From the NCBI GenBank assembly GCA_905479835.1, contig CAJQNZ010000024.1:1-43359 (forward strand): a stretch of DNA of 43,359 bases, read 5' to 3'. How positions within the stretch are numbered: position 1 is the first letter of the stretch; each line of letters starts with the position of its first letter. A model generated the notes under the pieces. That model searched no databases. It had not been told where the DNA came from and worked only from the letters and a program-made list of their open reading frames with translations. The translations under genes were made by a program, and so were the position numbers. Positions 3,958 to 41,350 of the stretch are shown here, piece after piece. The stretch comes from an uncultured Flavobacteriaceae bacterium. Its GTDB lineage: Bacteria > Bacteroidota > Bacteroidia > Flavobacteriales > Flavobacteriaceae.

Positions 3958-3961
3958 ATAT

Positions 3962-4513: not shown

Positions 4514-4517
4514 AATA

Positions 4518-4525: not shown

Positions 4526-4553
4526 AGCTATTGAAAATTGTTTTTATATTTTA

Positions 4554-4585: not shown

Positions 4586-4634
4586 TAATTGATTAATAGT
4601 AATATAGTTATTGTATTTCTATAATATAAAAAGC

Positions 4635-4916: not shown

Positions 4917-4999
4917 TTTATTTAACAGATTTACTTATAAATAAAAGATAAATTGCGTTTTTTAAATTCTTGACCTTTTTTATAACCAAATAAATAGTA

Positions 5000-9089: not shown

Positions 9090-9091
9090 TT

Positions 9092-10045
9092 ATGTCAGAC
9101 GTTACAGCAATAAATGAGTTAGGTGAAAAGTTTAAGCAATTAAAATCAGAAATTTCGAAGGTGATAATCGGTCAAGATCAGGCCGTAGATCATGTTCTAT
9201 TTTCTATATTTTCAGGAGGACATTCGTTGTTAATAGGTGTTCCTGGACTTGCAAAAACTTTACTTGTTAATACAATTTCTCAAGTAATAGGACTTGACTT
9301 TAAAAGGATTCAGTTTACTCCAGATTTGATGCCTTCAGATATTTTGGGAAGTGAAATTTTGGATGAAAATAGAACCTTTAAGTTTATCAAAGGACCTATT
9401 TTTTCTAATATTATCCTCGCTGATGAAATCAATAGAACACCTCCCAAAACTCAAGCAGCACTTCTAGAATCAATGCAAGAACGAACAGTAACTGTTGCTG
9501 GTGTCCATCATAAATTGTCATTACCATTTTTCGTTCTCGCAACTCAGAATCCAATAGAACAGGAAGGAACCTATCCATTGCCAGAAGCGCAGTTGGATCG
9601 ATTTATTTTTTCAATTAATCTTGATTATCCTACTTTTCAAGAAGAAGTTGAAGTTGTGAAAAGTACAACCTCAGATACTAAAGTAGAACTGAACTCTTTA
9701 TTGAGCGCTTCAGAAATTATTGAATATCAAAAATTAATAAGACGTATTCCAGTTGCAGATAATGTTATTGAATATGCTGTAAAATTAGTTTCAAAAACCC
9801 GACCAAATACTTCCATGGCTTCTGAAAATGTTAATAATTACATAAGTTGGGGAGCCGGACCAAGAGCTTCACAAAATCTTATTTTAGGAGCAAAAGTGAA
9901 TGCAGCAATTCATGGAAAGTACTCTCCAGATATTGAAGATGTAAAAGCAGTTGCATTCCCTATATTACGCCATAGAATAGTGAAGAATTATAAAGCAGAA
10001 GCTGAAGGTATATCAGAAGAAAAAATTATTGAAAGTTTATTGTAG
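9092..10045 (+). CDS. moxR: MoxR family AAA+ ATPase
   Basis: The 317-aa cytosolic protein has Walker A GVPGLAKT (residues 49-56), Walker B 'ILADEIN' (about 108-114), the sensor-1 'ATQNPIEQEGTYPLPEAQLDRF' region and a C-terminal lid domain. MoxR ATPases act as chaperones for metal-cofactor or membrane complexes, usually beside DUF58 and von Willebrand A genes. Neither partner is here. Instead the gene is 2 nt downstream of the SurA-like triad, so it probably shares their transcript. Its last 9 nt overlap the end of the convergent rsmD gene. Confidence 0.93.
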   Translation: MSDVTAINELGEKFKQLKSEISKVIIGQDQAVDHVLFSIFSGGHSLLIGVPGLAKTLLVNTISQVIGLDFKRIQFTPDLMPSDILGSEILDENRTFKFIKGPIFSNIILADEINRTPPKTQAALLESMQERTVTVAGVHHKLSLPFFVLATQNPIEQEGTYPLPEAQLDRFIFSINLDYPTFQEEVEVVKSTTSDTKVELNSLLSASEIIEYQKLIRRIPVADNVIEYAVKLVSKTRPNTSMASENVNNYISWGAGPRASQNLILGAKVNAAIHGKYSPDIEDVKAVAFPILRHRIVKNYKAEAEGISEEKIIESLL

Positions 10046-24954: not shown

Positions 24955-27792
24955 GTGTATATTAGTAAAATAATTAACACACCTTCAGATTTGAATCTTC
25001 TTAAAACAACTTCCATACTTTTTTTATTCTTTCAAGTATTTTTTATACGTGCTCAAGAATTGCCACCAATAAATGTTTTTTCGCCAAAAGAATACGGAGC
25101 AGAAAATCAGAATTGGTCAATTTCTCAATCCATAGATAATTATATATATGTAGCTAATAATAAAGGCTTGTTGGAGTATAATGGTGCTGAATGGCGACTA
25201 TATTCAACGCCCAACGAAACAATAATGCGATCGGTTACTGTAATTGATGATAAGATATTTACAGGGTTTTATATGGATTTTGGGTATTGGATTAAAGATG
25301 AAAAAGGCACTTTACAATACAATTCAATTGCAATTAAAAATAATATTCCATTACTAGAAGACGAGCAATTTTGGAACATAATTGAATCGGATGGTTGGGT
25401 TTTATTCCAATCTCTTAATAGAATTTATCTATACAACTTAAAAGATAACACATACAAGATAATAGAATCAAATGCCCAAATAACCAAAATTATTAAAGTT
25501 AATAATACTATTTATTTTCAAAAATTTAAAAAAGGAATTTACACAATAGAAAATGGAGTTGCCAAATTAATATCTGAATCAGAAGAATTAATTAATAGTA
25601 AATTGGTCAATGTTTATATTAAAGATAATAAAACACTTTTTTTAACTCAACATAATGGATTTTATTTTATTGATGATAAAGGAGTAGAAAAGTGGAATAT
25701 TTCAGCGGATAACATAATATCAATTAATACTATATATAGTTCTATTCAATTGAAAAATGGAGATTTTGTAATTGGAACTATTTCTGATGGAGTAATATAT
25801 CTTACTAATGATGGCATTATAGATTATCAAATAAATCAGGAAAATGGATTGAGTAATAATGCCGTTTTGTCAATTTTTGAAGATGCTCATAACACTATTT
25901 GGCTTGGTTTGGATAATGGAATAAATTCAATAGACGCTACATCTTCATTTAGAATATTTAATGATAAAAACGGACTTTTGGGAACTACATATTGTTCCGC
26001 GATAAAAGACGGTAATTTATATTTAGGAACAAATCATGGAGTTTTCTATAAAAGATTAAATAGTAATGAAGATTTTAAGTTTATAGAAAATACCGAAGGA
26101 CAAGTATGGTCTTTAGTTGAAATTGATGAGCAATTATTATGTGGTCACGATAGAGGTACTTTTATTATTGATAAAAACAAGGCCATAAAACAGATAGATA
26201 TTCAAGGAACATGGGATATAAAAAAAATCAATGAAGAATTTTATATTCAAGGGAATTATGACGGATTGTATATTATTAGAAAGACCGGTAAAAAATTGCA
26301 ATTAAAAAATAAGTTGAATGGATTTGATAATTCGAGTAAACATTTTGAATTTTTTGGGAGTAATAAAATATTTGTAAATCATGAGTATAAAGGTATTTTT
26401 AAAATATTTCTGAGTAATCAATATGATAGTATCTTAAAAGTAGAAAATGTTTCTTCAATTGAAAAAGGAATATATTCTTCATTGATAAAATATAATGATC
26501 AATTATTATATTCTAATAAAAATGGAATTTATTCATATGACTCAGTTTCTGAAGAATTTATAAAGGATTCAATTTATAGTCAATTTTTTTATCAGGAAAA
26601 ATATGCATCTGGAAAATTAATTTTTGATAGAGAAGGAAACAAACTTTGGGGTTTTTCAAATAAAAACATAAGTTACCTAGAACCAGGAAAATTAAGTAAC
26701 ACACCTATCCTCACTAAAATTCCAATTTTGGAAAAATATAGAAATACTATTTCTGGGTATGAAAACATTAAATTCATAGGAAACAATAAATATTTATTTG
26801 GTACTGCAAATGGATACATTACGATTGATTTAAATGCAGAAAAGATAAAAGATGATTTTGATTTAAATATTAGTTCAATTAAGGTTAATGTCCTTAATGG
26901 TGAGCAATTTACAGTGAATTTAAATGAAGATAGAGATTTTAAAACCAATGAAAATAATTTTGAATTCAACTTCAATATACCTTACCATCAATACTTTACT
27001 GAGCCTTACTTTAAACATAAGTTATCTGGACATAAAAATAATTGGAGTGATTGGACATCCGAAAGTAAAGTGACTTTTAAGAATTTACCTTATGGAGAAT
27101 ATACTTTTAATGTAAAAGTTAAAATTGGTGAGAACGTACATAAGGAAACAACTACATATAATTTCTCTATACGCAAACCTTGGTATTTAACTACTCTAAT
27201 GAAAATATTTTATTTACTAGTTATAATCTTATTTTCATTATTTATGCATGCTTTGTCAAGAAGACATTATAAAAAAGAGCAAAAAAGAGTCCTTGAGAAA
27301 AAACAACGAGAATTTGAGTTAAAATCATTGGAGAATGAAAAAGAATTAATGCTATTAAAAAATGAGAAGTTGAGTTTAGTAGTTGAAAACAAAAATAGAG
27401 AGCTTGCGACAGCAACTATGACTGCTATTAAGAAGAATGAATTTTTAGGAAACATAAAAAAGGAATTGCAAGGGTCAAATGAAAAAGATATTAAAAGAGT
27501 TGTAAAAATTATTGATAAAGATCTTAATAACACAGATGATTGGAAATTATTTAAGGAGGCATTCAATAATGCAGATAAAGATTTTATAAAAAAAATTAAA
27601 TTAAATCATCCAGAACTCACTCCAAACGACTTAAGATTATGTGCATATTTAAGGTTGAATTTATCGTCTAAAGAAATTGCACCTTTACTTAATATTTCTT
27701 CTAGAAGTGTAGAAGTAAAAAGATATAGATTGCGAAAAAAAATGAATTTATCACATGATAAAAACTTAACAAACTATATCTTAGAAATTTAA
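24955..27792 (+). CDS. Membrane-spanning beta-propeller sensor with Y_Y_Y and cytosolic HTH (PUL regulator)
   Basis: The start is a GTG (24955); a TTG 13 codons later would give a tighter signal peptide. The 945-aa protein has a signal peptide (ILFLFFQVFFIRAQ), periplasmic beta-propeller repeats with two-component-regulator character (about 30-660, for example 'DAHNTIWLGLDNGINSID'), a Y_Y_Y domain (about 684-735), a transmembrane helix (about 743-766), a coiled coil (about 770-830), and a C-terminal LuxR-like HTH ('LTPNDLRLCAYLRLNLSSKEIAPLLNISSRSVEVKRYRLRKKMNL'). The periplasmic half matches hybrid two-component systems, but the histidine kinase and receiver are missing, so signal passes straight to DNA. 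It precedes the glucan locus and probably controls it by sensing oligosaccharides. Confidence 0.88.
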   Translation: MYISKIINTPSDLNLLKTTSILFLFFQVFFIRAQELPPINVFSPKEYGAENQNWSISQSIDNYIYVANNKGLLEYNGAEWRLYSTPNETIMRSVTVIDDKIFTGFYMDFGYWIKDEKGTLQYNSIAIKNNIPLLEDEQFWNIIESDGWVLFQSLNRIYLYNLKDNTYKIIESNAQITKIIKVNNTIYFQKFKKGIYTIENGVAKLISESEELINSKLVNVYIKDNKTLFLTQHNGFYFIDDKGVEKWNISADNIISINTIYSSIQLKNGDFVIGTISDGVIYLTNDGIIDYQINQENGLSNNAVLSIFEDAHNTIWLGLDNGINSIDATSSFRIFNDKNGLLGTTYCSAIKDGNLYLGTNHGVFYKRLNSNEDFKFIENTEGQVWSLVEIDEQLLCGHDRGTFIIDKNKAIKQIDIQGTWDIKKINEEFYIQGNYDGLYIIRKTGKKLQLKNKLNGFDNSSKHFEFFGSNKIFVNHEYKGIFKIFLSNQYDSILKVENVSSIEKGIYSSLIKYNDQLLYSNKNGIYSYDSVSEEFIKDSIYSQFFYQEKYASGKLIFDREGNKLWGFSNKNISYLEPGKLSNTPILTKIPILEKYRNTISGYENIKFIGNNKYLFGTANGYITIDLNAEKIKDDFDLNISSIKVNVLNGEQFTVNLNEDRDFKTNENNFEFNFNIPYHQYFTEPYFKHKLSGHKNNWSDWTSESKVTFKNLPYGEYTFNVKVKIGENVHKETTTYNFSIRKPWYLTTLMKIFYLLVIILFSLFMHALSRRHYKKEQKRVLEKKQREFELKSLENEKELMLLKNEKLSLVVENKNRELATATMTAIKKNEFLGNIKKELQGSNEKDIKRVVKIIDKDLNNTDDWKLFKEAFNNADKDFIKKIKLNHPELTPNDLRLCAYLRLNLSSKEIAPLLNISSRSVEVKRYRLRKKMNLSHDKNLTNYILEI

Positions 27793-28072: not shown

Positions 28073-31000
28073 ATGAGAAATTTTTTAAAGTTACTTTTTA
28101 TCTTACTCATTACATCAACTTCATTTGCTCAAGCGAATAAAGTTTCTGTAGTAAATAATAATGATGGATTCAAGTTAGTTGTGAATGGGGAGGATTTTAT
28201 GATTAATGGTATTAACTGGGATTATGTGCCTATAGGCTACAATGTCTTAGATGCTAAATTTTGGGAAAAACCAGATAACATTATAAAGGCTGGTTTAGAT
28301 GAAGAAATGCCTTTATGGCAAAACATGGGTGTTAACGCTATTAGAACATATATAGGGATGCCACCTAAATGGGTTAAATATGTTTATGAAAATTTCGGTA
28401 TTTATACAATGATAAATCATCAATTTGGTGCTTATGGTTTAACCTTAGATGGTGTTTGGAACCCAAAAACTAAATATGCTGATCCAAGAGTTAGAAAACA
28501 TCTTATTGAAGAAACAGTAAAAATGGCCGAAATGTATAAAAATACACCAGGACTTTTATTGTTCATGTTAGGGAATGAAAACAACTACCATTTAACTTGG
28601 GAAGGTGCTGAAACTGATGAAGGAATTGTTATTAATGATAAAGATGAAGCAACTAGAACTGAAGCAAGAGCAATGTATAAGTTATTCAATGATGCTGCCT
28701 TAGCTATGAAAAAAGTTAATCAAAATAATCCAATAGGTATTTGTAACGGTGATTTATTATACTTAGACATTGTTGCTGAAGAATGTAATGATATTGATAT
28801 TTATGGTACTAATATGTATCGAGGTGTTTCTTTCTATGATGCTTTTGATAGGGTAAGTGAAGAATTTAATAAACCTATTTTATTTACTGAATTTGGTTCT
28901 GATGCTTACAATGCAAGAGATAATAAAGAAGATCAATTAATGCAAGCATATTATATGCTTAATAACTGGAACGAAATATATGCTAATGCGTATGGGCTTG
29001 GAAAGGCCGAAAACTCTATTGGAGGTTTCACATTTCAATCTAGCGATGGTTGGTTTAAAGCTGGTTTTGATGAAAGAAAAAACGCTGACCTCCATGATAC
29101 TGAAGCATCTTGGCCAAGTAATGGTTATACTAGAGATCAAGCTAAAAAAGATGATAAAAACATGAATGAAGAGTGGTTTGGAATTGCTGCTAAGGGGCCT
29201 ACAGACCTCAGAGGATTATATTCATTATATCCAAGAGCATCTTATTACGCACTTAAAGAAGCACATAGTTTCAATCCGTTCAAAAGTAATGCTACTGAAT
29301 TCAAAAATCATTTTGATAATATTAACTTAATGGATGCTGTTCTTAGAGCAAGAGGTGATAAAGCAGCTTTGAAAACAGAAGAAGGTGGTAAAATTAAACT
29401 GACTAATATGAGGGCTGAATTTACCACATTTAATACAGGTGGAAATTTAATAACTACTCCAGAAACCTCAGATCCAAATAATCAAGTATACCCAAATCAA
29501 CTAGGCTTTGATCATATGCAATCCTATTTTATAGGAGTAGAAGGTAACCCAGCACCAGGAATGCGTGCTGAAGTTAACTTTAACATATTAGGTAATGTTG
29601 CAGAAAACCCTATTGATGAAATTTTTTATGAAAATAGAGGGAGGCGTTTTGATGTAAATACTGATGATGGAAATGTAATTATTGCGGATCCAAATAGAGT
29701 TCAAGTTTACAATGCAGAGTTTGAATGGAATGCAAAAGATTTTGATTTAAGAGGTTTTTTTAGAACTGGACATTATCATTGGGGATATGAAGGTGATTTA
29801 TTTGGTTTATATCCTGAGGCAAATTATGGCCCTAATTTAGATATTTATGGAGGTGAAATTTCAGGTATTGAAATAGATGGTAAAGGTGGCTTAAAAGGTC
29901 TAAAAGCCGCTTTTGGACCTCAATTATGGTGGGGAGCAAATCCAACTGCATTACTTAAATATAGAAAAAAAATTGCTCAATGGGATGTGACAGGTGTTTA
30001 TCATAGAGATTTTCAAACAGAAATTGATTTTGATGAATCCGGACGACGTATATTAGATGCTAATCAAGTAACTAGTGGTGTGATTCCAGGATGGCCAACA
30101 GAAAGAGCTTCACTTGCGATAGAAAGAGAATTTGGAAAATTTGAATTGTCTTTAGGTGGTATTTGGGGAGGTAGTCCTTTGAATGGAATATCCTATCAAG
30201 ATGTTACTGGTACTTCAGGTAATTATGTAGTATTTGAAGATAAAATTAATAGTGATGATAACTGGGGAGCAAAAGGAAAAATCACATATGAAGGAGGTAA
30301 ATTTAATTGGTATGCACAAGGAGCAGTTATGGGCTTAGTTGCCAATGGTGGTGCAGATCAAATCCAGACATTTACAGGTTGGAAATTAAAAGATACTGGA
30401 AGTGGAAATCAGTCTAATTTTCTAACCGGTTTTACGTATAATATTGGAGACTTTCAAATTGCACCAAATTTTTTATGGCAAAAACCTTTAGTTGCAGCAA
30501 TGCCTAATGATCTTGCAAATAATATATTGCCAACACCAGGAAGATTAAGAAATGTGATTGATGATCCGTTTGCTGTAAGAAGTAATAGAGAAACAACAGC
30601 TGGAGAAATTTTATTAACTTTTGACCCAACTCCCGGAACATGGTATTATGAATGGGATAATGATAGACAAGAAGATGCAAAGTTTGCATTTAATCTTGGA
30701 TTTGTATACCGTCACCATCCAGTTGCTCAAGATGCAGCAATAGGGTTTTTAGCAAATCGACAGTTTTTTGGTTTTCCTAATGCAGCACCTGCACAAGATT
30801 TATGGGAAGTAAATTCAAGGATCGTTTCAAAAAGTTCTTCTGGACTTGGTGTAATATCAAATCTTTATTTCGGAAATGCTCAAGCAAATGGAGATAGCCC
30901 TAGAACTATTGAGCGTTTTGGAGGAGATATAAGGTTAATTCATAAGAAATTTAAACTTGTGCATTCTTTTAAAGTAAATGATTGGGGGCCTTTCGATTAT

Positions 31001-31267
31001 CATAGAGATTTTAACTTAACATATCCTGTTCAATTGATGTTGGATTTATCAACATCTCTTGGTAAACAAGATTGGTTTATTTTACCAAGTACTAAAATAG
31101 GTATACGTGGAACTTGGCGATCAATGGATCAATATTCACCACGTTATAGCCCAAATGCAGTTCAGCCTAATACATTTCCACCTATTCCTACTATAAGTCC
31201 TGTAGGATTCGGAGATGGAAATGAGTGGGAAATAAGAACATATGTACACATTAATATTGGAAAATAA
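28073..31267 (+). CDS. Clan GH-A glycosidase fused to a putative outer-membrane beta-barrel
   Basis: The 1064-aa protein has a signal peptide (LLFILLITSTSFAQ). Residues 25-410 are a TIM-barrel glycosidase related to the GH2/GH5 catalytic domain: 'FMINGINWDYVP', 'MGVNAIRTYIGMP', the acid/base candidate E169 in 'LGNEN' and the nucleophile candidate E273 in 'LFTEFGSD'. From about residue 446 to the end the sequence is a long series of alternating amphipathic beta strands with aromatic girdles and Gly/Asp-rich turns ('YEGGKFNWYAQGAVMGLV', 'FQIAPNFLWQKP', 'FKLVHSFKVNDWGPF'), ending in a strand at the last residue, as expected of an outer-membrane barrel. No SusC-like plug or TonB box is present. 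It heads the PUL, 12 bases before the next gene. The exact GH family is not certain. Confidence 0.72.
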   Translation: MRNFLKLLFILLITSTSFAQANKVSVVNNNDGFKLVVNGEDFMINGINWDYVPIGYNVLDAKFWEKPDNIIKAGLDEEMPLWQNMGVNAIRTYIGMPPKWVKYVYENFGIYTMINHQFGAYGLTLDGVWNPKTKYADPRVRKHLIEETVKMAEMYKNTPGLLLFMLGNENNYHLTWEGAETDEGIVINDKDEATRTEARAMYKLFNDAALAMKKVNQNNPIGICNGDLLYLDIVAEECNDIDIYGTNMYRGVSFYDAFDRVSEEFNKPILFTEFGSDAYNARDNKEDQLMQAYYMLNNWNEIYANAYGLGKAENSIGGFTFQSSDGWFKAGFDERKNADLHDTEASWPSNGYTRDQAKKDDKNMNEEWFGIAAKGPTDLRGLYSLYPRASYYALKEAHSFNPFKSNATEFKNHFDNINLMDAVLRARGDKAALKTEEGGKIKLTNMRAEFTTFNTGGNLITTPETSDPNNQVYPNQLGFDHMQSYFIGVEGNPAPGMRAEVNFNILGNVAENPIDEIFYENRGRRFDVNTDDGNVIIADPNRVQVYNAEFEWNAKDFDLRGFFRTGHYHWGYEGDLFGLYPEANYGPNLDIYGGEISGIEIDGKGGLKGLKAAFGPQLWWGANPTALLKYRKKIAQWDVTGVYHRDFQTEIDFDESGRRILDANQVTSGVIPGWPTERASLAIEREFGKFELSLGGIWGGSPLNGISYQDVTGTSGNYVVFEDKINSDDNWGAKGKITYEGGKFNWYAQGAVMGLVANGGADQIQTFTGWKLKDTGSGNQSNFLTGFTYNIGDFQIAPNFLWQKPLVAAMPNDLANNILPTPGRLRNVIDDPFAVRSNRETTAGEILLTFDPTPGTWYYEWDNDRQEDAKFAFNLGFVYRHHPVAQDAAIGFLANRQFFGFPNAAPAQDLWEVNSRIVSKSSSGLGVISNLYFGNAQANGDSPRTIERFGGDIRLIHKKFKLVHSFKVNDWGPFDYHRDFNLTYPVQLMLDLSTSLGKQDWFILPSTKIGIRGTWRSMDQYSPRYSPNAVQPNTFPPIPTISPVGFGDGNEWEIRTYVHINIGK

Positions 31268-31279
31268 AAAATATAAAAA

Positions 31280-32692
31280 ATGAAATACAAAAAATTTATT
31301 TACCTAAAAACAGCACTTTTTATAGCACTTATAACTATAAATACTAGTTGTGAAAGAGACTTATCTGAAGACGCTGTGTTTGCAACGAATTCTAATACAG
31401 GAGAGATTTTTACTGATTCACCTATTGGTTTAGGAACTGACTTTTATTTTCCTTTTTTAGGCTCTAAACTTACTGCTTGGACAGTAGATGATAATGAAGG
31501 ATATGAAAGTCAATCTTCGATGCGTTTTGACGTCCCAAATGCAAACGATCCAGAAGGTAATTATGCAGGTGCAATATTCAGAGTAGATGGAAATGGTCGT
31601 GATTTAACTGGTTATGATGCATTGACTTTTTGGGCTAAAGCTTCACAAGGTGTTGTTATTGGTGAAATTGGTTTTGGTCAAGATTTTTTCGACAATAAAT
31701 ATCAAGCAAATGTTGCAAATGTTAGTTTTAGTACAAATTGGGTTAAATATATTATCCCAATTCCTGACCCTTCAAAACTTATCGATGAAAGAGGATTGTT
31801 TTGGTATTCAGCCGGAACTCAAAATACTGGAGGATTAGGATATGTTTTTTGGATTGACGATTTAAAATTTGAAAAGTTAGGAACACTTGGGAGCCCAAGA
31901 CCTTCTGTATTCAATGGAGAAGAAAGTAGTTATCAAACATTTATTGGTACTGATGGTATTTTAGACTCTTCTTCTACTGTTACTTTTAATTTAGTTAACG
32001 GATTAAATCAAACTGTGATTGCTGCTCCTAGTTATTTTAATTGGATGTCATCAGAAACTAGTTCAGTATATATAGATGAGACAGGGTTTTACAACGCAAT
32101 TGCTACTGGAGAGGCTGTAATAACAGCAACTTTAGCAGGTGTTGAAGCTCAAGGATCCCTTACAACAACAGTTTTAGGTGAATTTGATTTTGCTCCATAT
32201 CCAACACAAGATGCAGGTAATGTAATATCTATTTTTTCTGATGCTTACTCAAATGTACCTGTAGACTTTTATAATGGTTATTGGGAGCCTTTCCAAACAA
32301 CTTTATCAGCAGATTTTGCTATAAATGGTGATAATATTTTAAACTATACTAATTTTAATTTTGTTGGAAATCAATTTGCAAACCCAACAATTGACGCTTC
32401 CGATATGTCTTATTTACATGTTGATATGTTTATACCAGAGTTTCCATCATTTTTTGATTTTTTAATTACGGTTGTAGATTTTGGAGCAGATGGAGTTGAT
32501 GGAGGAGGAGATGATACTAGGCAACAAATGTTTGTAACTGCCTCTGATGTTGAAGCAGGAGTCTGGAATTCATTTGAATTACCTTTAACTTTAACAAACA
32601 GAAGTAATATTGGTCTTATTATTTATGAAAACATCAATTTTGCGACATTAAGAAATTTTTATTTAGATAATATATATTTCTACAAAGAATAA
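31280..32692 (+). CDS. Surface glycan-binding lipoprotein candidate
   Basis: No exact family is recognised. The 470-aa protein has an SPII signal (FIALITINTSC) followed by acidic residues (ERDLSED). Residues about 45-195 look like a jelly-roll carbohydrate-binding module ('AGAIFRVDGNGRDLTGYDALTFWAKA', ending 'FWIDDLKFEKLG'). A bacterial Ig-like (BIG_2-type) segment follows (about 200-295, ending 'GEAVITATLAGVEAQGSLTTTV'). A second jelly-roll-like domain (about 300-470) ends 'FYLDNIYFYKE'. No catalytic signature is visible. In place and architecture it resembles the surface glycan-binding proteins of Bacteroidota PULs. Confidence 0.7.
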   Translation: MKYKKFIYLKTALFIALITINTSCERDLSEDAVFATNSNTGEIFTDSPIGLGTDFYFPFLGSKLTAWTVDDNEGYESQSSMRFDVPNANDPEGNYAGAIFRVDGNGRDLTGYDALTFWAKASQGVVIGEIGFGQDFFDNKYQANVANVSFSTNWVKYIIPIPDPSKLIDERGLFWYSAGTQNTGGLGYVFWIDDLKFEKLGTLGSPRPSVFNGEESSYQTFIGTDGILDSSSTVTFNLVNGLNQTVIAAPSYFNWMSSETSSVYIDETGFYNAIATGEAVITATLAGVEAQGSLTTTVLGEFDFAPYPTQDAGNVISIFSDAYSNVPVDFYNGYWEPFQTTLSADFAINGDNILNYTNFNFVGNQFANPTIDASDMSYLHVDMFIPEFPSFFDFLITVVDFGADGVDGGGDDTRQQMFVTASDVEAGVWNSFELPLTLTNRSNIGLIIYENINFATLRNFYLDNIYFYKE

Positions 32693-32725: not shown

Positions 32726-33571
32726 ATGAACAAAAAAATAAACTATAAAACAATAAGAAGTACTTTTCTATATATGTCTTTTATATTGGTAGTAACTTTA
32801 ACAATTTCTAGTTGTGCTACAGATGATAATCAGACTGTTACTGAATTTACTGAATTGGTATGGCAAGATGAATTTGATATTCAAGGGGCTCCAAATCCTG
32901 ATAATTGGGGTTATAATATAGGTACAGGAGAAAATGGTTGGGGTAACAGCGAATTACAGTATTATACAGATCGTTCCGAAAATGTTGTAATACAAAACGG
33001 TATTTTAATAATATCTGCTATAAAAGAAGACTATAATGGCTCATCTTACACATCTGCTAGACTTTTAACTAAAGATAAACTTGAACAAAAATATGGTCGT
33101 TTTGAAGCTCGTATGAGATTGCCAAGTGGAAAAGGTATATGGCCTGCTTTCTGGATGTTAGGAGCCAATATTGACCAAGTTGGTTGGCCAAATTGTGGAG
33201 AGATTGATATAATGGAGAATGCTGGATCAGAACCGACTAAAGTAAGTGGCGCTGTTCATGGACCAGGTTATTCAGGAGGGGCAGCAATTTTTAAAAAATA
33301 TGATTTGCAAAATGATCGTTTTGATAGTGGATTTCACATTTTTGGGATTGAATGGGGTCCTGAATACATAAACTATTATGTAGATGATGTATTGTATAAT
33401 CAAATAACTCCAGCAGATGTAACTGGAGAATGGGTCTTTGATAACGGTCCGTTCTATATTATAATGAATCTAGCAGTTGGAGGTGTTTTTGATGGTTCAC
33501 CAAATGAGGATACAGTTTTTCCACAAACATTGCTTGTGGATTATGTAAGAGTATATAAAAACAATAATTAA
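32726..33571 (+). CDS. GH16 family endo-beta-1,3-glucanase (laminarinase) lipoprotein
   Basis: The 281-aa enzyme has a lipoprotein signal ending 'LTISSC', followed by ATDDN, an acidic patch suggesting surface exposure. A single GH16 domain follows: 'LVWQDEFD', 'YGRFEARMRLPSGKGIWPAFWMLG', and the active site E159-I-D-I-M-E164 (nucleophile and acid/base). The extra Met between D and E is the laminarinase-type beta-bulge, distinct from kappa-carrageenan or lichenase types. It ends 'VDYVRVYKN', typical of the fold. Predicted action is internal cleavage of beta-1,3-glucan at the cell surface. Neighbouring GH17, GH30 and GH149-like genes support laminarin as the substrate. Confidence 0.93.
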   Translation: MNKKINYKTIRSTFLYMSFILVVTLTISSCATDDNQTVTEFTELVWQDEFDIQGAPNPDNWGYNIGTGENGWGNSELQYYTDRSENVVIQNGILIISAIKEDYNGSSYTSARLLTKDKLEQKYGRFEARMRLPSGKGIWPAFWMLGANIDQVGWPNCGEIDIMENAGSEPTKVSGAVHGPGYSGGAAIFKKYDLQNDRFDSGFHIFGIEWGPEYINYYVDDVLYNQITPADVTGEWVFDNGPFYIIMNLAVGGVFDGSPNEDTVFPQTLLVDYVRVYKNNN

Positions 33572-33586: not shown

Positions 33587-36445
33587 ATGAAACAGTTAAT
33601 TAAAAATGTAAAGCAAGTTTTAATGCTGCTTATGGTTATATCAATTATAGGATGTGACGATGATCAAATTACTTTACCAGAAATAGTTGCAGAGTATACT
33701 TATACTATTGCAACTGATAACTCAGGTATTGTTACATTCATAAATACATCTGAAAATGCTACAAGTTATGAATGGGATTTTGGTGATGGAATTTCTTCTG
33801 ATTTAAATAATCCAATTCATCAATTTACTCAAAGTGGTGAATATACAGTTGTAATTACTGCAATAAATATTGCAGGAGCAACAACTACTTTTGAAAGTAT
33901 CATAACAATCATTATTTTAGATCCAGCTTCATTGCCATTAAATTTTGATGATGATAATGTTAAATATGATGATGTTAATGTTTTCGGAGGAGTATCTTTT
34001 ACAGTGGTAGAAAATCCAGATGTATCAGGATCAAATAACACTGCTTCTGGTGTTGGTTCTATTACCAATATAGGTGGTCAATATGAAGGTTTCTCTTTTG
34101 AATTAGGAGAAATTATAGATCTAACAACTGATCAATCTATAATTTTTGATTTTTGGTCAGATGTACCTGTAGATGTCTTAGTTAAACTAGAAAATCCAGA
34201 TGGTTCTTTTACTGAAACAATAGCATCTCATGGTGGAAATGGATGGGAAGAACTTATATTCACATTTAATTCATCAGCTACTTATTCAATATTAACAATT
34301 TTTGTTGATGGACCAGGAACGACCGCTGGTACTTTTTATATTGATAACATAAATCAATCTGTAACAGTTGATTTAACGCTACCTATCATAACTTTGATAG
34401 GAGATGCAACAATAAATCTTGCCTTAGGAGATACGTATACTGAACAAGGAGCAACAGCTACTGATGATTTGGATGGTGACATTTCAGGTAGCATAGTTAT
34501 TGCTGGTGATACAGTTGATACAGTTGCAGAAGGAACTTTTATAATAACTTATAATGTTACTGATTCAGGTGGCAATGCAGCAATAGAAGTAACAAGAACA
34601 GTAAATGTTACTATTACAGATATTACTGCTCCAACAATTACTTTAACTGGAGATGCAACAATTAACCTTATAATAGGTGATACATATACAGAACAAGGAG
34701 CAACAGCTTCAGATAATATAGATGGAGATATTTCTTCTGATATCGTTATTGCAGGAGCAACTGTTGATACAAATACAGCAGGAACCTATATTATTACTTA
34801 CAATGTGACTGATGCAGCGGGTAATGCGGCAACAGAAGTTACAAGAACAATTATTGTTGCAGCAGCTCCTGCTGCTTTTGATGACGGTTTATTAACAAAT
34901 GGAGATTTTGAAAACGGAGCAGAAGCTTGGACTGGAAATGCAACTAATGTTTTGACTGAAGGAGGAAACTCTTATAACTTTGCAGATGTTGCAGTAGCGG
35001 GAAATCCTTGGGAAGCAAATTTAAGTCAAGTAGTTGAAATAATTCAAGGTAAGAATTATAAATTGACTTTCGATGCATCTTCTAATGGATCACGTACAAT
35101 GCTTGCGGGAATTGGACTGAATCAAGATCCTTGGACCAATGTTGTTGAAACAGTTAATTTAACGACAACAACTCAAACTTTTACTTATAATTTTTCATCA
35201 GCAGATTTTGGTGGTGTAAATAGCCGTGTTTTATTTGATTTAGGAGCAGATTCAGGGGTTGTAGTAATAGATAATGTTTCTTTATTCTGTTTAGACTGTG
35301 GAACAGGTGGGGGTACAGGTGGAGGAACTGGTACTGGTGCTGAAGGTGATTTAACTGCCAATGGAGGTTTTGAAACAGGGGATGTTTCTGATTGGACATT
35401 ATTCGTAGATAATCCTGGTGCTACTTTTACTGCTACTGACTCAGCTGCAGCATGTGGAACTTTCTCTGGAAATCTAATGTCTGATTTCGCTTCAGGAACT
35501 GGAGGAGCAGTTGATGCTGTTGTAAAACAAGCTAATATTGGTATTGGAACAATAACACCTAACACTCAAGTGACTATTTCATTTGATATTCGTGGTTCTG
35601 TTACAGATGGAGGCGTGTTTTTTGCAGAATTCTTTTCTGAATTAAGTGGAGGAGGAACATCTAAAGCCGAAATTTTGAGTGGAGGACCACTTTCTTTAAC
35701 CGATAACTGGACACATTATAGCTTCACAACTACTACAGGTTCAGATGTAAGTGGTGGAATAACTTTACAAATGAAAACTTCATGTGGTCCAGTTGCTGGA
35801 TGTGTAGTTGATGCATTTTTCGACAATGTATTTGTTGGTATAGGTGCTACAGGAGGTATTAATGGAACTATAGATTGTACAACTACTGGTGGAGGAACTG
35901 GTGGCGGAACTGGAGGAACTGGAGGAACTGGAACTGGTGATGAAATGGGTGTAAATGGTGATTTTGAAACAGGAGATGTTTCTGATTGGACAACATTTGT
36001 TGATGCAGTAGGAGCTTCTTTTACAGCTAGTAGTACAAACCCAAGTTCTGGTTCTTTTTCTGGTAATTTAGTTGCTGATTTTGCTTCAGGAACTGGAGGT
36101 GCAGTTGATGCTGTAGTTAAACAAGCCAATCTAGGTGCTGGAGGTACAGCGCTTGCAAATACTGAATATGTTATTGCTTTCGATTTACGTGGTTCTGCTT
36201 CAGATGGAGGTGTATTCTTTGTAGAATTTTTCTCTGAGTTATCTGGTGGAGGTACTTCAAAGGCTGAAATTATAACAGGAGGACCACATCCATTAACAGA
36301 TAATTGGACTTCCTATAGTTATACAGTAACTACCGGTCCTGATGTAAGCGGCGGAATTACACTTCAATTAAAATCATCTTGTGGCCCAGTTGCTGGATGT
36401 TTGGTTGATGTGTTTTTTGATAATGTTTCTATAAAACTTAAATAA
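33587..36445 (+). CDS. Large multi-domain carbohydrate-binding lipoprotein (PKD, Ig-like, CBMs)
   Basis: The 952-aa protein has an SPII signal (VISIIGC) followed by DDDQ, a strong surface-export pattern. Domain order: PKD (about 38-108, 'SYEWDFGDGISS'), a jelly-roll segment (115-262), two DUF5011-type Ig-like repeats (263-345 and 346-425, each with 'DTYTEQGATA-D--DGDIS'), a CBM4/9-like module (435-570), and two near-identical CBM modules (about 588-770 and 788-952) joined by Gly/Thr linkers. No catalytic residues are recognised, so it probably binds and holds glucan at the surface. It starts 15 bases after the GH16 stop and is followed by a long hairpin. Confidence 0.83.
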   Translation: MKQLIKNVKQVLMLLMVISIIGCDDDQITLPEIVAEYTYTIATDNSGIVTFINTSENATSYEWDFGDGISSDLNNPIHQFTQSGEYTVVITAINIAGATTTFESIITIIILDPASLPLNFDDDNVKYDDVNVFGGVSFTVVENPDVSGSNNTASGVGSITNIGGQYEGFSFELGEIIDLTTDQSIIFDFWSDVPVDVLVKLENPDGSFTETIASHGGNGWEELIFTFNSSATYSILTIFVDGPGTTAGTFYIDNINQSVTVDLTLPIITLIGDATINLALGDTYTEQGATATDDLDGDISGSIVIAGDTVDTVAEGTFIITYNVTDSGGNAAIEVTRTVNVTITDITAPTITLTGDATINLIIGDTYTEQGATASDNIDGDISSDIVIAGATVDTNTAGTYIITYNVTDAAGNAATEVTRTIIVAAAPAAFDDGLLTNGDFENGAEAWTGNATNVLTEGGNSYNFADVAVAGNPWEANLSQVVEIIQGKNYKLTFDASSNGSRTMLAGIGLNQDPWTNVVETVNLTTTTQTFTYNFSSADFGGVNSRVLFDLGADSGVVVIDNVSLFCLDCGTGGGTGGGTGTGAEGDLTANGGFETGDVSDWTLFVDNPGATFTATDSAAACGTFSGNLMSDFASGTGGAVDAVVKQANIGIGTITPNTQVTISFDIRGSVTDGGVFFAEFFSELSGGGTSKAEILSGGPLSLTDNWTHYSFTTTTGSDVSGGITLQMKTSCGPVAGCVVDAFFDNVFVGIGATGGINGTIDCTTTGGGTGGGTGGTGGTGTGDEMGVNGDFETGDVSDWTTFVDAVGASFTASSTNPSSGSFSGNLVADFASGTGGAVDAVVKQANLGAGGTALANTEYVIAFDLRGSASDGGVFFVEFFSELSGGGTSKAEIITGGPHPLTDNWTSYSYTVTTGPDVSGGITLQLKSSCGPVAGCLVDVFFDNVSIKLK
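34375..34860 (+). repeat. Tandem DUF5011/Ig-like repeat units
   Basis: Two consecutive units (starting near 34375 and 34627) encode the same pattern 'P-ITL-GDATINL--GDTYTEQGATA', about 84 aa each. They show clear DNA-level similarity and are likely to act as a stalk. Confidence 0.75.
35350..36440 (+). repeat. Duplicated carbohydrate-binding module
   Basis: Units at about 35350-35860 and 35950-36440 encode the same domain, for example 'GFETGDVSDWT' and 'DFETGDVSDWT', and 'FFSELSGGGTSKAEI' in both. Between and before them are Gly/Thr-rich linkers (about 35300-35345 and 35885-35940) of short GGNACN repeats. High DNA similarity suggests a recent duplication. Confidence 0.85.
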
Positions 36446-36608: not shown

Positions 36609-39600
36609 ATGAGTAAAAATCCCATATATTTAGGAAGCAACATAGCTTCATTTGAAGAGAATGAGATCAAAGGAGAATTAATATCTTTTGAAAACGAAAT
36701 CTATTATAAAATATCAAATTTCGATCAAATGAGACCCTTTTTTATAAGTCTCATTAGTAATTCCAATCACTGGATGTTTATCTCAAGTAACGGTGGTTTA
36801 TCTGCAGGTAGAAAAAATGCTGAAAACTCGTTATTTCCTTATTATACTGATGATAAAATAACTGAATCTGCTGATATAACTGGAAGTAAAACAATCCTTC
36901 AAGTTCATAAAGATGATAAAATTTTCTTATGGGAACCTTTTTCTGATAAATATCAAGGTGTTTATTCAATAAAAAGAAATATTTATAAAAATAGGTATGG
37001 AAATAAACTAGTTTTTGAAGAAATCAATGAAGATCTAGGAATCACTTATAAATACCATTGGAATTCAAGTAACCAATTTGGATTTGTAAAAAAATCAGAA
37101 TTGATTAATAACAATAATTCTAATATTTCTGTAACTGTTTTAGATGGTTTACAGAATATTCTTCCTTATGGTGTAGGAGAAGATCTTCAAAAAGCTTCTA
37201 GTAATTTAGTAGATGCATACAAGAAAAGCGAATTAGAACAAGATACAGGATTAGGAATATTTGCCTTAAGTGCTATAATTGTTGATAAGGCGGAACCTAG
37301 TGAAGCACTAAAATCTAATATTGTATGGTCATTGGGAATTGAGAATCCTACCTACTTAATTTCTTCACTACAACTTAATAATTTTAGAAAAGGGAAAGAA
37401 ATTCATCAAGAAATCGATATTAAAGCAGAAAAAGGAGCCTATTTTGTTTCTGCAGATCTTCACTTAAAAACTCAAGAAACTAAGAGTTGGATGTTGATCG
37501 CAAATGTCAATCAAGATATGAATGACATTATCAATATTTCAGAAAAAATAAAAAATGAAACTTCTTTAGACCTTATTGTTCAGGAAGATATTGAAGCAGG
37601 TACAAAACATTTATTAGAACTAGCAGGAGCGTCAGATGCAATGCAATTAAGTACTAATAGACTGCGTAACACAAGACATTTTGCTAATACTCTTTTCAAT
37701 ATTATGAGAGGTGGAATTTTTGATGATAATTATAACATTGAAAAAGATGACTTTACTAAATATATTGCAAACGCAAACAAAAAAGTATTTAAGAAAAAAG
37801 GAGCCATATTAGCAAAACTACCAGCAGTTTTTAATTTAAAAGTAATTAAAGAAATTGCCGAAAAAGATGATGATAAAAATTTCAAGCGACTATGCTTTGA
37901 ATATTTACCATTAAAATTCAGTAGAAGACATGGAGATCCAAGTAGACCTTGGAATAAATTTTCTATAAATACGCGTAGTGAAGTTGACGACTCTAAAATT
38001 CTTGATTATGAAGGAAATTGGAGAGATATATTCCAAAATTGGGAAGCATTGGCTCATTCATATCCCGAGTTTATTGAAGGTATGATCCATAAGTTTTTGA
38101 ATGCCTCAACTTTCGATGGATACAATCCATATAGAGTAACTAAAGGTGGTTTTGACTGGGAAACTGTAGAAGAAGACAATCCATGGTCATACATTGGATA
38201 TTGGGGAGATCATCAAATTATTTACTTACTTAAATTCTTAGAATTTATAGAAGATCATTATCCTAACAAATTAGCGAGTTATTTTAATAAAGATATTTTT
38301 GTTTATGCGAATGTACCATACAAGATTAAAAGTTATGAAGATATTCTTGTAAATCCAAAAGACACTATTGAGTTTGATGTAGAATTGGACGAAAGAATAC
38401 GTCAAAAAAGAACTGAACTAGGAGTTGACGGAGCATTATTAAGAGATGAGAATTACTTTATTCATAAAGTGAATTTGGTTGAAAAGTTATTAGCAACTGT
38501 TCTTGCAAAAATTTCAAACTTTATTCCAGAAGCAGGAATTTGGTTGAATACCCAAAGACCTGAATGGAATGATGCAAATAATGCATTGGTAGGTAATGGA
38601 GTCTCAATGGTTACTTTATATTACTTAAGACGTTTTTTAAATTTCTTTGAAGATATTGTAATAAAAATGCCTGAAGATGATCGTTCAATATCTGTAGAAT
38701 TAGCGAACTTTTTTAATGAAGTATTAGCAACTTTTAATTCTAACAAACATATTCTTGACGGTAAAGTTTCAGATAAAGATAGAAAAACTGTTGTTGATGG
38801 TTTAGGAAAAGCAGGAAGTAAGTATCGAAATTATATTTATGAAAATGGATTTACAAGCGATAAAGGTGTTATAACGAAGAATGATTTATTAGAATTTTTT
38901 GAAGTTTCTAAAGCGTATTTAGAACATACAATTAATGCAAATAAACGAGAAGATAATTTATTTCATTCTTACAATTTAATGACAGTTGAGAGCGATTCTG
39001 AAATTTCTATTTCATATTTGCCTGAAATGCTGGAAGGTCAAGTAGCAGTTTTAAGTTCTGGTTATATTTCTGGTGAATCATCATTGGAATTATTAGACGC
39101 ACTAAGAAGTAGTTCGCTTTTCAGACCAGATCAATACAGTTATATTTTATATCCAAATAAAGAATTAGCTCGATTTATAGATAAAAACAACATACCATCC
39201 GAGGCTATAGATAAATCTAAATTATTACAGCAACTTTTAAAAGAAGGAAACAATCAAATTATCCAAAAAGATACTTTAGGAAACTATCATTTTAATGGAA
39301 ATTTTAACAATGCTGCAAGTTTAAAAGAAGCATTGTCAATTTTGCCAAAAGAAAAATATGAGTCTCTTGTTAAAAACGATAAACCCTTATTACTAGAAGT
39401 ATTTGAAGAAATGTTTGATCATAAATCATTTACTGGTCGTTCAGGAACATTCTTTGGCTATGAAGGTTTAGGTTCAATCTACTGGCACATGGTTTCAAAA
39501 CTTTTATTAAGCGTACAAGAAACGTGTCTTCTTGCGATTGCTAATAATGAAAGTGAAGTTGTTATCGGAAAATTGTTAGATCATTATTATGAAATAAATG

Positions 39601-40070
39601 AAGGGATAGGAGTACATAAATCACCTGAATTGTATGGAGCTTTCCCAACAGACCCTTATTCTCATACACCTGCAGGAAAAGGTGCTCAGCAACCAGGAAT
39701 GACAGGGCAAGTAAAAGAAGATATTTTAAGTAGGTTTGGAGAATTAGGTGTTTTTGTGAAAAATGGGTTACTTCAATTCAATCCTAGATTATTAAGAGGA
39801 CAAGAATTTATAAAAACTACAAGAACATTTACATATACTGCCTTGAGCAAAGAAGTAAAAGCAATTGAATTGGAAAAAGAATCGATGTGCTTTACTTATT
39901 GTCAGATCCCTGTTATATATAATCTTTCTGATCATAATGGAGTAAAAGTCATTATGATTGATGGAAATATCAATGAGTTTGAAAATTTAAACCTTGATCA
40001 AGAAACAAGTAAAAAGGTATTTGAAAGAACAGGAGAAATTGATCAAATTATAGTTTCATTAAAAAAATAA
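36609..40070 (+). CDS. GH149-like beta-1,3-glucan phosphorylase
   Basis: The 1153-aa protein has no signal peptide, so it is cytosolic. It has an N-terminal beta-sandwich (about 1-320), then an alpha/alpha-barrel-type region with 'DYEGNWRDIFQNWEAL', 'DGYNPYRVTKGGFDWE', 'IGYWGDHQIIYLLKF' and a C-terminal 'FGYEGLGSIYWHM' and 'HTPAGKGAQQPGMTGQVKEDIL'. The size, order and PUL context match GH149, the family of beta-1,3-glucan phosphorylases; Asp534 in 'GYWGDHQ' is a candidate general acid by analogy with GH94-like enzymes. The reaction would be beta-1,3-oligoglucan plus phosphate giving glucose-1-phosphate. GH161 or another GH94-like family is the main alternative. The promoter must lie in the 163 bases upstream, after the hairpin. 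Confidence 0.72.
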   Translation: MSKNPIYLGSNIASFEENEIKGELISFENEIYYKISNFDQMRPFFISLISNSNHWMFISSNGGLSAGRKNAENSLFPYYTDDKITESADITGSKTILQVHKDDKIFLWEPFSDKYQGVYSIKRNIYKNRYGNKLVFEEINEDLGITYKYHWNSSNQFGFVKKSELINNNNSNISVTVLDGLQNILPYGVGEDLQKASSNLVDAYKKSELEQDTGLGIFALSAIIVDKAEPSEALKSNIVWSLGIENPTYLISSLQLNNFRKGKEIHQEIDIKAEKGAYFVSADLHLKTQETKSWMLIANVNQDMNDIINISEKIKNETSLDLIVQEDIEAGTKHLLELAGASDAMQLSTNRLRNTRHFANTLFNIMRGGIFDDNYNIEKDDFTKYIANANKKVFKKKGAILAKLPAVFNLKVIKEIAEKDDDKNFKRLCFEYLPLKFSRRHGDPSRPWNKFSINTRSEVDDSKILDYEGNWRDIFQNWEALAHSYPEFIEGMIHKFLNASTFDGYNPYRVTKGGFDWETVEEDNPWSYIGYWGDHQIIYLLKFLEFIEDHYPNKLASYFNKDIFVYANVPYKIKSYEDILVNPKDTIEFDVELDERIRQKRTELGVDGALLRDENYFIHKVNLVEKLLATVLAKISNFIPEAGIWLNTQRPEWNDANNALVGNGVSMVTLYYLRRFLNFFEDIVIKMPEDDRSISVELANFFNEVLATFNSNKHILDGKVSDKDRKTVVDGLGKAGSKYRNYIYENGFTSDKGVITKNDLLEFFEVSKAYLEHTINANKREDNLFHSYNLMTVESDSEISISYLPEMLEGQVAVLSSGYISGESSLELLDALRSSSLFRPDQYSYILYPNKELARFIDKNNIPSEAIDKSKLLQQLLKEGNNQIIQKDTLGNYHFNGNFNNAASLKEALSILPKEKYESLVKNDKPLLLEVFEEMFDHKSFTGRSGTFFGYEGLGSIYWHMVSKLLLSVQETCLLAIANNESEVVIGKLLDHYYEINEGIGVHKSPELYGAFPTDPYSHTPAGKGAQQPGMTGQVKEDILSRFGELGVFVKNGLLQFNPRLLRGQEFIKTTRTFTYTALSKEVKAIELEKESMCFTYCQIPVIYNLSDHNGVKVIMIDGNINEFENLNLDQETSKKVFERTGEIDQIIVSLKK

Positions 40071-40078: not shown

Positions 40079-41350
40079 ATGATAAAATATTTGAAAATAA
40101 TTGGTTGCTTTTTATCAGTACTACTTGTATTTTCATGTAAAAATACTGCTAAAATAGAAAGCCAAAAAAGTGTGGAAAAAGAAGTAGGTTTAAGCGCAAA
40201 GGAAATTTTGGGTAATCCAAAATATTTAGCAATGTCTTATGGAGGATATAGAGATAAAGATCACAATATAGAACCTACTTTGGCCGAACTCAAGGAGGAT
40301 ATGAAACTTCTAGCAGCAATGGGAGTAAAAATCATTAGAACTTATAAAGTTCATAAGCCACAAGCAGAAAATGTATTAAAGGCAATCACTGAACTGAAAA
40401 AAGAAGATCCTGATTTTGAAATGTATGTGATGCTAGGAGCATGGATAGACTGTAAAAACGCATTTACTGATAAGCCAAGATTGCATAATGTTGAAAGTGA
40501 GGCCAACATCCCACAGATGGAAAAAGCAATTTCTTTAGCCAATCAGTATCCAGATATCGTAAAGATAATAGCTGTAGGAAACGAGGCCATGGTTAAATGG
40601 GCTGAATCTTATTATGTAGAACCTTGGATAATTTTAAAATGGGTAAACCATCTACAAAACTTAAAAAAAGAAGGAAAACTTTCTAAAGATTTATGGATAA
40701 CAAGTTCCGATAACTTTGCTTCTTGGGGAGGTGGAGGTCCTGAGTACCATATAGAAGATTTAAATCAATTGATTCTTGCAGTAGATTTTATTTCTATGCA
40801 TACTTATCCTATGCATGATACTCATTATCAGCCAGAATTTTGGAAAAAACCTTTTGCTAATAAAGAGTTAACTGATTTGGAGAAAATCGAAGAATCTATG
40901 TTAAGATCAAAAAAATATGCTCAAATGCAGTTCTCAAATGTTAAGAAATATATGAAGAGCCTTGGAGTAGATAAACCTATTCATATTGGTGAAACCGGTT
41001 GGGCAAGTTTTTCTTCAGGATTTTATGGTTCTGACGGATCTAAAGCATGCGATGAGTATAAAGAAGCTCTTTATTATAAGCATATGCGTGATTGGACAAA
41101 TAAAGAAGGGATGTCTTGTTTTTATTTCGAAGGGTTTGATGAACCATGGAAAGGTGGTGAAAATGATGGTAATTCTGAAAAACATTTTGGATTATTTACA
41201 GTAGATGGAAAAGCAAAATATGCTCTTTGGGATGAAGTTGATCAAGGAATTTTTAAAGGATTAACCAGAAATGGAAATCCTATTACAAAAACCTATAATG
41301 GTGATATGGAAGCATTGATGAAAGATGTTGAAGTTCCTTCAACAAATTAG
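40079..41350 (+). CDS. GH17 family beta-1,3-glucanase lipoprotein
   Basis: The 423-aa protein begins 8 bases after the phosphorylase stop. The lipoprotein signal ends 'LLVFSC'; the residues after it (KNTAKIES) are not acidic, so a periplasmic-facing anchor is likely. The GH17 TIM barrel is marked by the acid/base E169 in 'AVGNEAM' and the nucleophile E305 in 'HIGETGW', the classical GH17 pair, plus 'GVKIIRTY' at strand 2 and 'DFISMHTYP'. It should cleave beta-1,3-glucan oligosaccharides. Bacterial GH17 enzymes can act as exo- or endo-glucanases; the mode cannot be told here. Confidence 0.92.
   Translation: MIKYLKIIGCFLSVLLVFSCKNTAKIESQKSVEKEVGLSAKEILGNPKYLAMSYGGYRDKDHNIEPTLAELKEDMKLLAAMGVKIIRTYKVHKPQAENVLKAITELKKEDPDFEMYVMLGAWIDCKNAFTDKPRLHNVESEANIPQMEKAISLANQYPDIVKIIAVGNEAMVKWAESYYVEPWIILKWVNHLQNLKKEGKLSKDLWITSSDNFASWGGGGPEYHIEDLNQLILAVDFISMHTYPMHDTHYQPEFWKKPFANKELTDLEKIEESMLRSKKYAQMQFSNVKKYMKSLGVDKPIHIGETGWASFSSGFYGSDGSKACDEYKEALYYKHMRDWTNKEGMSCFYFEGFDEPWKGGENDGNSEKHFGLFTVDGKAKYALWDEVDQGIFKGLTRNGNPITKTYNGDMEALMKDVEVPSTN

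Follow-up and report, generated by a model that had tools for sequence, protein, structure and literature searches.

We analysed a stretch of DNA of 43,359 nucleotides, here called the window, from an uncultured Flavobacteriaceae bacterium (GenBank assembly GCA_905479835.1, contig CAJQNZ010000024.1), with a focus on a gene at 28073..31267 that encodes a glycosidase fused to a predicted outer-membrane (OM) beta-barrel. The fusion gene and the operon genes described below all lie on the forward (+) strand. The gene starts with ATG and encodes a protein of 1064 aa, with exact open reading frame (ORF) limits. As read from the sequence, the N-terminus MRNFLKLLFILLITSTSFAQ resembles a signal peptidase I signal without a lipobox (residues 1-20, starting at 28073 and ending at 28132). 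It is followed by a TIM-barrel glycosidase domain of clan GH-A (residues 22-400, 28136..29272), a linker that is helical in the structure model (residues 401-440, 29273..29392) and the predicted OM beta-barrel (residues 441-1064, 29393..31264).

This architecture was confirmed as a real observation. A genome scan returned 429 stretches encoding relatives, and the best 80 were retained as loci; these align almost end to end, at 66-73% identity, and all have the same architecture, so the fusion is not a chance event. A preliminary description of the window had placed a TIM-barrel hydrolase and a possible OM barrel on one polypeptide. Pfam, AlphaFold2, Foldseek and residue conservation agree with it on this point, and the fusion architecture is more general than that description could tell.

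The two halves of the fusion protein

The hydrolase part is matched by PF02836, the TIM barrel of glycoside hydrolase family 2 (GH2), at E 1.1e-5 and 25.2 bits against a Pfam cut-off of 21. In GH2 enzymes the TIM barrel is preceded by further GH2 domains. None of these other domains matched at E <= 1 in the Pfam scan, and the TIM barrel begins near residue 22 in the model. A profile search of the PDB was led by GH158 (E 1.7e-4 and 2.1e-4), followed by a GH2 beta-galactosidase; the GH158 match is weak, with E 1.7e-4 over about 80-130 residues only. In a fold search with the full model, the best PDB matches were GH158 endo-laminarinases (9p26, 9oro and 6pal), with GH2 enzymes next.

Both catalytic glutamates noticed in the preliminary description are in place. 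E169 (28577..28579), the predicted acid/base within GNEN, aligned with the GNE of BuGH158, and E273 (28889..28891), the predicted nucleophile within TEFG, aligned with the TEFG/TEWG of GH158. The catalytic pair of GH158 is E137/E220 (PMC7157763; here and below, the cited papers are drawn on through excerpts). Conservation was assessed in 114 distinct full-length frames from 123 loci, the other nine being duplicates or without a frame that passed the filter (longer than 850 aa, containing NE at any position and at least one of three barrel motifs). R91, N115, N168, E169, N247, Y249, E273 and W327 were invariant in 114/114 of these relatives, and E169 and E273 were also invariant in a 60-row alignment. 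The Asn before the acid/base Glu (N168-E169) and the nucleophile Glu both occupy their clan GH-A positions. Based on the invariant active-site residues and the motifs aligned with GH158, the domain is a clan GH-A enzyme with an intact active site, nearest to GH158 and GH2, and its activity is predicted. Elsewhere, three short TIM-barrel proteins of 339-348 aa (L088, L089 and L090) share 25-27% identity with the hydrolase domain and have GH2_C Pfam matches without other GH2 domains; they possibly represent another unclassified GH-A group.

In the C-terminal half, residues 431-1064 matched no Pfam family at E <= 10, and a profile search of the PDB with residues 396-1064 was likewise negative at E <= 10. 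AlphaFold2, run with 60 sequences, gave a pLDDT (predicted local distance difference test) of 72.1 and a pTM (predicted template modelling score) of 0.50 for the whole protein, and 71.8 and 0.69 for residues 396-1064, which were modelled as a long antiparallel strand meander. Structure prediction, which the preliminary description had suggested as a check, thus bears out the roughly 620 C-terminal residues of amphipathic beta strands it had described. A Foldseek search with the model of residues 396-1064 gave 828 matches at E <= 10 and 258 at E <= 0.001, and all 50 listed matches were OM barrels, namely TonB-dependent transporters (TBDTs), ushers, LptD and porins. The family-averaged alternation of hydrophobicity in the barrel part exceeded that of shuffled sequences (z 4.1), compared with z 3.3 for a SusC-like barrel, z -0.1 for GH16 and z -1.9 for the hydrolase domain. 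When outward and inward strand faces were separated by hydrophobicity, conservation was 0.85 on the less hydrophobic faces, 0.75 on the hydrophobic faces and 0.82 for residues outside strands. No cysteine was found in the barrel part of 58/60 alignment rows, and aromatic residues make up 13% of it. As predicted by these models, therefore, the half has the features of an OM barrel: an antiparallel meander with alternating hydrophobicity that ends at the C-terminus. Two other assignments were rejected. A TBDT was discarded because no plug or TBDT Pfam family matched the whole protein at E <= 1 or residues 431-1064 at E <= 10, and a type IX secretion domain at the C-terminus was discarded because the protein ends in an amphipathic strand and no such Pfam or NCBIfam family matched at E <= 1.

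We counted 24 strands, with 12 connections on one side averaging 24.7 residues and 11 on the other averaging 5.4. The count and the loop parity were established manually, with the small hairpins at 526-537 and 707-724 taken as parts of loops; the parity exceptions are two connections of 7 residues on the long side and two of 20 and 12 residues on the short side. OM barrels usually carry their long loops outside. On this basis both ends of the barrel would lie on the periplasmic side. The hydrolase then probably faces the periplasm rather than the cell surface, a point on which the preliminary description took no position, unless the domain passes through the pore. Four aromatic-rich loops on the long side are 88-98% conserved: a near-invariant loop at residues 566-594 (29768..29854, conservation 0.95), the near-invariant QLWWGAN at 617-623 (29921..29941, 0.98), a conserved loop at 753-779 (30329..30409, 0.88) and the near-invariant NDWGPFDYHRDFNLTYP at 969-985 (30977..31027, 0.96). 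The filter used for the conservation values slightly favours the three barrel motifs, and W619-N623 and N969-P973 were invariant also in the 60-row alignment, which was made without it. On the short-turn, periplasmic side, a conserved loop of 20 residues (851-870, 30623..30682, 0.88) is a possible docking site for the hydrolase.

Operon, partner lipoprotein and natural variants

The fusion gene lies within a run of closely spaced genes. Upstream is a probable operon regulator with Reg_prop, Y_Y_Y and LuxR-type helix-turn-helix domains by Pfam (24955..27792), and directly downstream is a lipoprotein read as two domains like carbohydrate-binding modules (CBMs) around a Big_2-like domain (31280..32692). 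Then come a GH16 lipoprotein, a probable beta-1,3-glucanase (32726..33571; PF00722, lipobox read from sequence), a PKD / Ig-like / CBM_4_9 lipoprotein that is a probable glycan binder by Pfam and its N-terminus (33587..36445), and a GH149 beta-1,3-glucan phosphorylase in which no signal peptide was seen (36609..40070; NF058639, 1809.7 bits against a cut-off of 1150). The run continues with GH17 (40079..41350; PF00332) and GH30 (41375..42862; PF02055) lipoproteins, both so read from their N-termini, and the start of a major facilitator superfamily (MFS) sugar transporter cut by the contig end (42895..43359; PF13347, E 1.1e-27). The gaps between the first eight genes, from regulator to GH30, are 280, 12, 33, 15, 163, 8 and 24 bases. 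Between 27700 and 31700, promoter-like sites numbered 11, compared with 21.1 in shuffled sequence, and a search for terminators there was negative.

GH16, GH17, GH30 and GH149 are encoded together here, as in a laminarin operon. Since GH149 is a named beta-1,3-glucan phosphorylase, the substrate of the operon is very probably a laminarin-type glucan, and beta-1,3-glucan may also be the substrate of the fusion's GH-A domain. The operon has a set of genes similar to that of the variant B laminarin polysaccharide utilization locus (PUL), which has been related to a laminarin-inducible PUL of Polaribacter (PMC6298971). Across the 80 loci we found homologues of the lipoprotein in 80, always adjoining the fusion, GH16 in 78, GH149 in 64, the PKD protein in 54, the regulator upstream in 50, GH17 in 30 and GH30 in 15, counts that include many flanks stopping before the later operon genes. 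Six loci of 20 kb each (L156-L161), from the set of 14 barrel genomes with few contigs described below, have the order fusion, lipoprotein, GH16 and GH149, with GH17 and GH30 where the stretch reaches.

The lipoprotein family was scanned in 13 members, which gave weak CBM_11/CBM30 and Big_2 matches and none to the SusD Pfam family; the window's copy matched only Big_2, at E 0.067. These 13 make up alignment A4 and were drawn from 24 sequences (the window's and 23 others), after two with a stop, four longer than 520 aa and five for brevity were dropped. Away from the operon, the window contains two PPIC-type peptidyl-prolyl isomerases with a third gene in between (5000-9089). SurA-type chaperones of the PPIC class help OM barrels to fold.

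Of 395 genomes sampled from the window's phylum, 35 had the barrel part by single-sequence search and 37 by profile. Open frames of 1028-1084 aa occurred in 33 of them, counting the window's own genome, and the remaining matches were fragments (G272, a second contig of G241, and G157 with stops) or barrel-less enzymes matched through the linker (G341 and G405). No free-standing barrel without the enzyme was found at E <= 0.001 by profile search of the 395 genomes. One weak match from the single-sequence search, at G326:C64:516-701 (E 8.7e-4, 41% over 58 residues), falls in a frame of 747 aa and could be a distant free-standing barrel. The 40 genomes nearest the window, counting its own, gave matches in 12: seven to the fusion, the window's genome among them, and five to short TIM-barrel proteins.

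The two halves of the window's protein have different affinities. Its hydrolase is of the type found in Polaribacter and its kin: seven loci (L001, L002, L004, L005, L009, L010 and L069) share 78-87% identity with it in this domain but only 67-72% in the barrel, and against L007 the values are 64% for the hydrolase and 80% for the barrel. The main alignments A1 and A2 held 60 of the 81 sequences (the window plus 59 of the 80 loci), and A3 held 30. The hydrolase tree joins the window with the seven loci at a Shimodaira-Hasegawa-like approximate likelihood ratio (SH-aLRT) support of 100, and the barrel data reject this group, which was chosen after the identities were seen, in the approximately unbiased (AU) test (p-AU 0.001). 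As judged from these comparisons, the window's fusion protein is a recombinant mosaic, with its break at residues ~410-440, the domain junction. A break at this position suggests that the halves are exchangeable and that the joint is flexible rather than finely fitted.

We also found natural variants without the barrel. A hydrolase-only profile matched 47/395 genomes at E <= 1e-8. These matches divide into 33 fusions, the broken copy in G272, four distant proteins and, in nine genomes, the close enzyme as a free protein. The free enzymes have 438-480 aa, apart from one of 364 aa cut by its contig, and one of them matches the hydrolase profile across all 384 positions at 54% identity. GH149, GH17 or GH30 accompanied the enzyme in eight of the nine loci, and the contig of the ninth is 3.1 kb long. 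The lipoprotein was compared between these nine genomes and 14 barrel genomes, which were selected from the 33 with long frames because they have few contigs; three of the 14 (G150, G224 and G149) also supplied rows to A4. It stood at full length next to the fusion in 14/14, and a full-length homologue was present in 0/9 barrel-less genomes, two of which have its C-terminal domain alone within other proteins. The Fisher value for this pairing, 1.2e-6, disregards kinship, so separate switches between the two states make the better argument. The hydrolase tree has five fused/free switches, at least four of them forced by well-supported branches, and both states occur within three genera (g90, g105 and g120). 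Barrel and lipoprotein are thus gained or lost jointly, which is the behaviour expected of a physical pair. At locus L183 (G157:C314, around 3461-3620), a barrel remnant with stop codons follows the free hydrolase gene, and the genome has no full-length lipoprotein. The broken remnant indicates that, there at least, the barrel was probably lost, and recently. The lipoprotein companion, the barrel-less variants and the wide spread of the laminarin-type operon all go beyond the preliminary description.

A possible laminarin uptake route and its alternatives

We propose, at what we consider even chances of being right, that the fusion is an OM uptake component that carries its own glucanase and is partnered by the CBM-like lipoprotein, an analogue of SusC/SusD unrelated in sequence. 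The C-terminal half would form an OM beta-barrel of about 24 strands without a TonB plug, and the lipoprotein next door would fill the place that SusD has beside SusC. GH16 at the surface would cut laminarin; the lipoprotein, together with the barrel's aromatic long loops, would catch the fragments. These would cross the barrel and reach the GH-A domain hanging from its periplasmic side, where beta-1,3-glucan would be cut on arrival, and GH17, GH30, the MFS carrier and the cytosolic GH149 would complete the pathway. The computations show a conserved fusion with an intact active site, its operon, its pairing with the lipoprotein and a neighbourhood that usually lacks SusC; a closed barrel, passage of glucan through it and a surface position of GH16 and the lipoprotein are what we infer. 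Conduction of glucan, already suggested in the preliminary description, accordingly stays at that level, and gains weight because SusC is usually missing nearby and the lipoprotein regularly accompanies the barrel. A bolder version, which we regard as doubtful, is a further kind of OM glycan importer, in which a plug-less barrel would act with a CBM-type lipoprotein, the hydrolase would serve as periplasmic gate or plug, and passage and cleavage would be a single step with no need for SusC/SusD and possibly none for TonB.

Like the preliminary description, we found a beta-glucan operon without SusC/SusD, the pair that marks a canonical PUL: the window has no SusC-like ORF, and TIGR04056 had no match on its contig. 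Of the 80 loci, 52 have no SusC-like gene in the DNA examined (up to about 8 kb either side, with eight of the 52 having less than 6 kb upstream) and two have one on the other strand. Among the 14 barrel genomes, no SusC-like ORF was seen in the 20 kb of each of L156-L161. For all 14, SusC (TIGR04056, E <= 1e-60, at most 30 candidates scored per genome) lay within 5 kb of the fusion in two (G263 and G141) and at least 24.8 kb away or on another contig in 12, with the nearest SusC in some being merely on another contig. In the window's own genome (81.8% complete), a single SusC exceeds the cut-off; it lies on contig C33 beside a SusD-like_2 gene, and the genome has no SusD by PF07980. On that contig (L123), the two ORFs (7243-9520) following this sole SusC (2629-7220) gave no enzyme family.

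Several points weigh against our proposal. A SusC-like gene lies upstream on the same strand in 26/80 loci, so the barrel is no simple replacement for SusC. Moreover, no SusC-like ORF was found in 7/9 barrel-less loci, some of which are short contigs (L176 8.2 kb, L180 3.1 kb and L183 11 kb), so the barrel seems dispensable for the enzyme; the other two (G142 and G341) have a SusC-like gene and SusD beside the free enzyme. With these two counts we rejected the barrel as an outright substitute for SusC/D. It could instead be a glucan-binding or assembly partner in a larger OM complex, with the hydrolase as a membrane-held periplasmic enzyme and transport left to a SusCD elsewhere. The SusC-like genes in the 26 clusters, the SusC on C33 and the at least two SusC matches present somewhere in each of the 14 genomes would agree with this. 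However, 12 of the 14 have no SusC within 24.8 kb, and G228 and G064 have only two matches each (E <= 1e-60), and we consider this explanation improbable.

Two further points concern how the halves would work together. The free recombination of the halves argues against a finely fitted enzyme-pore joint, and a plug-less barrel of 24 strands needs a gate, of which none is evident. Another explanation, which seems unlikely, is that the barrel is an anchor or export device only and transports no sugar, with the hydrolase threaded out in autotransporter style, or tethered, as a surface endo-glucanase. Autotransporters have a C-terminal barrel of 12 strands and carry the passenger on the surface, and the order of N-terminal enzyme, helical linker (its helices modelled at low confidence) and C-terminal barrel is theirs. 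Barrel-less versions exist, and four of the nine (L175, L177, L179 and L182) are lipoprotein-like in their N-termini. On the other hand, the fusion has by our count about 24 strands rather than 12, and a pure anchor would neither need such conserved faces and four conserved loops nor explain why the lipoprotein is missing wherever the barrel is.

The barrel itself is also open to question. TM-scores (template modelling scores) against known barrels lie at 0.18-0.33 by query length and at most 0.42 by target; these low values support the fold class, not the exact shape. With the full-length model, only 4/50 listed Foldseek matches were OM barrels and the other 46 were hydrolases, and the control for hydrophobicity alternation on the CBM-sandwich lipoprotein gave z 2.6, not far under the barrel's value. 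Closure and strand number are predictions from models of moderate confidence, built from 60 close homologues. This control, the moderate model confidence and the low TM-scores would be in line with a soluble beta-rich domain (a CBM, Ig or beta-helix array) in place of a membrane barrel. We think this very improbable and rejected a soluble CBM or Ig half: Pfam and the PDB profile search gave no such match and none of the 50 listed Foldseek matches was soluble, and the near absence of Cys, the aromatic content and the loop/turn parity speak against it as well. Neither of the contrary outcomes named in the preliminary description, a soluble CBM/Ig fold or a known secreted glycosidase without a barrel, appeared.

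Explanations and predictions of uptake in Bacteroidota usually rest on SusC/SusD pairs. The laminarin-type operon described here occurs in many genomes, mostly without a nearby SusC, and has an enzyme-barrel fusion and a dedicated lipoprotein instead, which suggests that the two form an unrecognised route of laminarin uptake in Bacteroidota. Laminarin is a major pool of marine fixed carbon (PMC11345257, PMC13188888). If the barrel conducts, PUL prediction based on SusC/D overlooks a class of uptake systems, and a single protein links hydrolysis to passage across the membrane. The uptake idea can be put to a direct test with the natural variants that lack the barrel.

Comparison with known systems

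In the open-licence literature on fusions, barrels, laminarin, GH149, GH158, GH0 and SusC-less uptake, we found no description of an enzyme-barrel fusion, in keeping with the preliminary description, which knew of no family of this design. GH158 (BuGH158, PDB 6pal, and GH158(Pro), 9oro/9p26) shares with the fusion's hydrolase the fold, the best profile match and the catalytic Glu motifs, as well as a beta-1,3-glucan PUL context (PMC7157763), although sequence similarity is weak and covers part of the domain. BuGH158 has a C-terminal Ig-like domain (PMC7157763), whereas the fusion has a linker of ~40 residues and then the strand meander. With GH2 the fusion has PF02836 above the cut-off in common, but the other GH2 domains have no match and the profile match is partial. 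Muricauda laminarin clusters have been described with a GH2 beta-glycosidase upstream of GH16 and GH149 (PMC13188888), and laminarin PULs have been written as GH149-GH0-GH16_3, with expression of the GH0 gene in the top 10% for one metagenome-assembled genome (PMC10108472). By position, and without proof, we take both genes to be the fusion gene; where these open-licence papers use the GH2 and GH0 labels, their excerpts carry no mention of a barrel.

The pairing of an OM barrel with an adjacent lipoprotein in a glycan operon recalls SusC/SusD, but the fusion has no plug or TBDT match, its partner is of the CBM/Big_2 type and not SusD, and the hydrolase sits at the plug's place. The nearest printed idea, a barrel and a protein like surface glycan-binding protein B (SGBP-B) without SusD, is the atypical PUL chu_1276-1280 of Cytophaga hutchinsonii, in which CHU_1276 is a predicted TBDT-like OM barrel and an endoglucanase is present (PMC12016534). 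There, CHU_1279, an SGBP-B-like protein with two CBMs, is needed for growth on cellulose (PMC12016534). The cluster differs in that its substrate is cellulose and not laminarin and no fusion is described in the excerpts. Homology of the fusion's barrel to CHU_1276 or CHU_1277 is a lead only. A GH17 fusion to MFS is known from Formosa. The GH17-MFS fusion of marine Flavobacteriia likewise joins a hydrolase to a sugar transporter in laminarin PULs (PMC6246565), but with an MFS carrier and an enzyme of another family.

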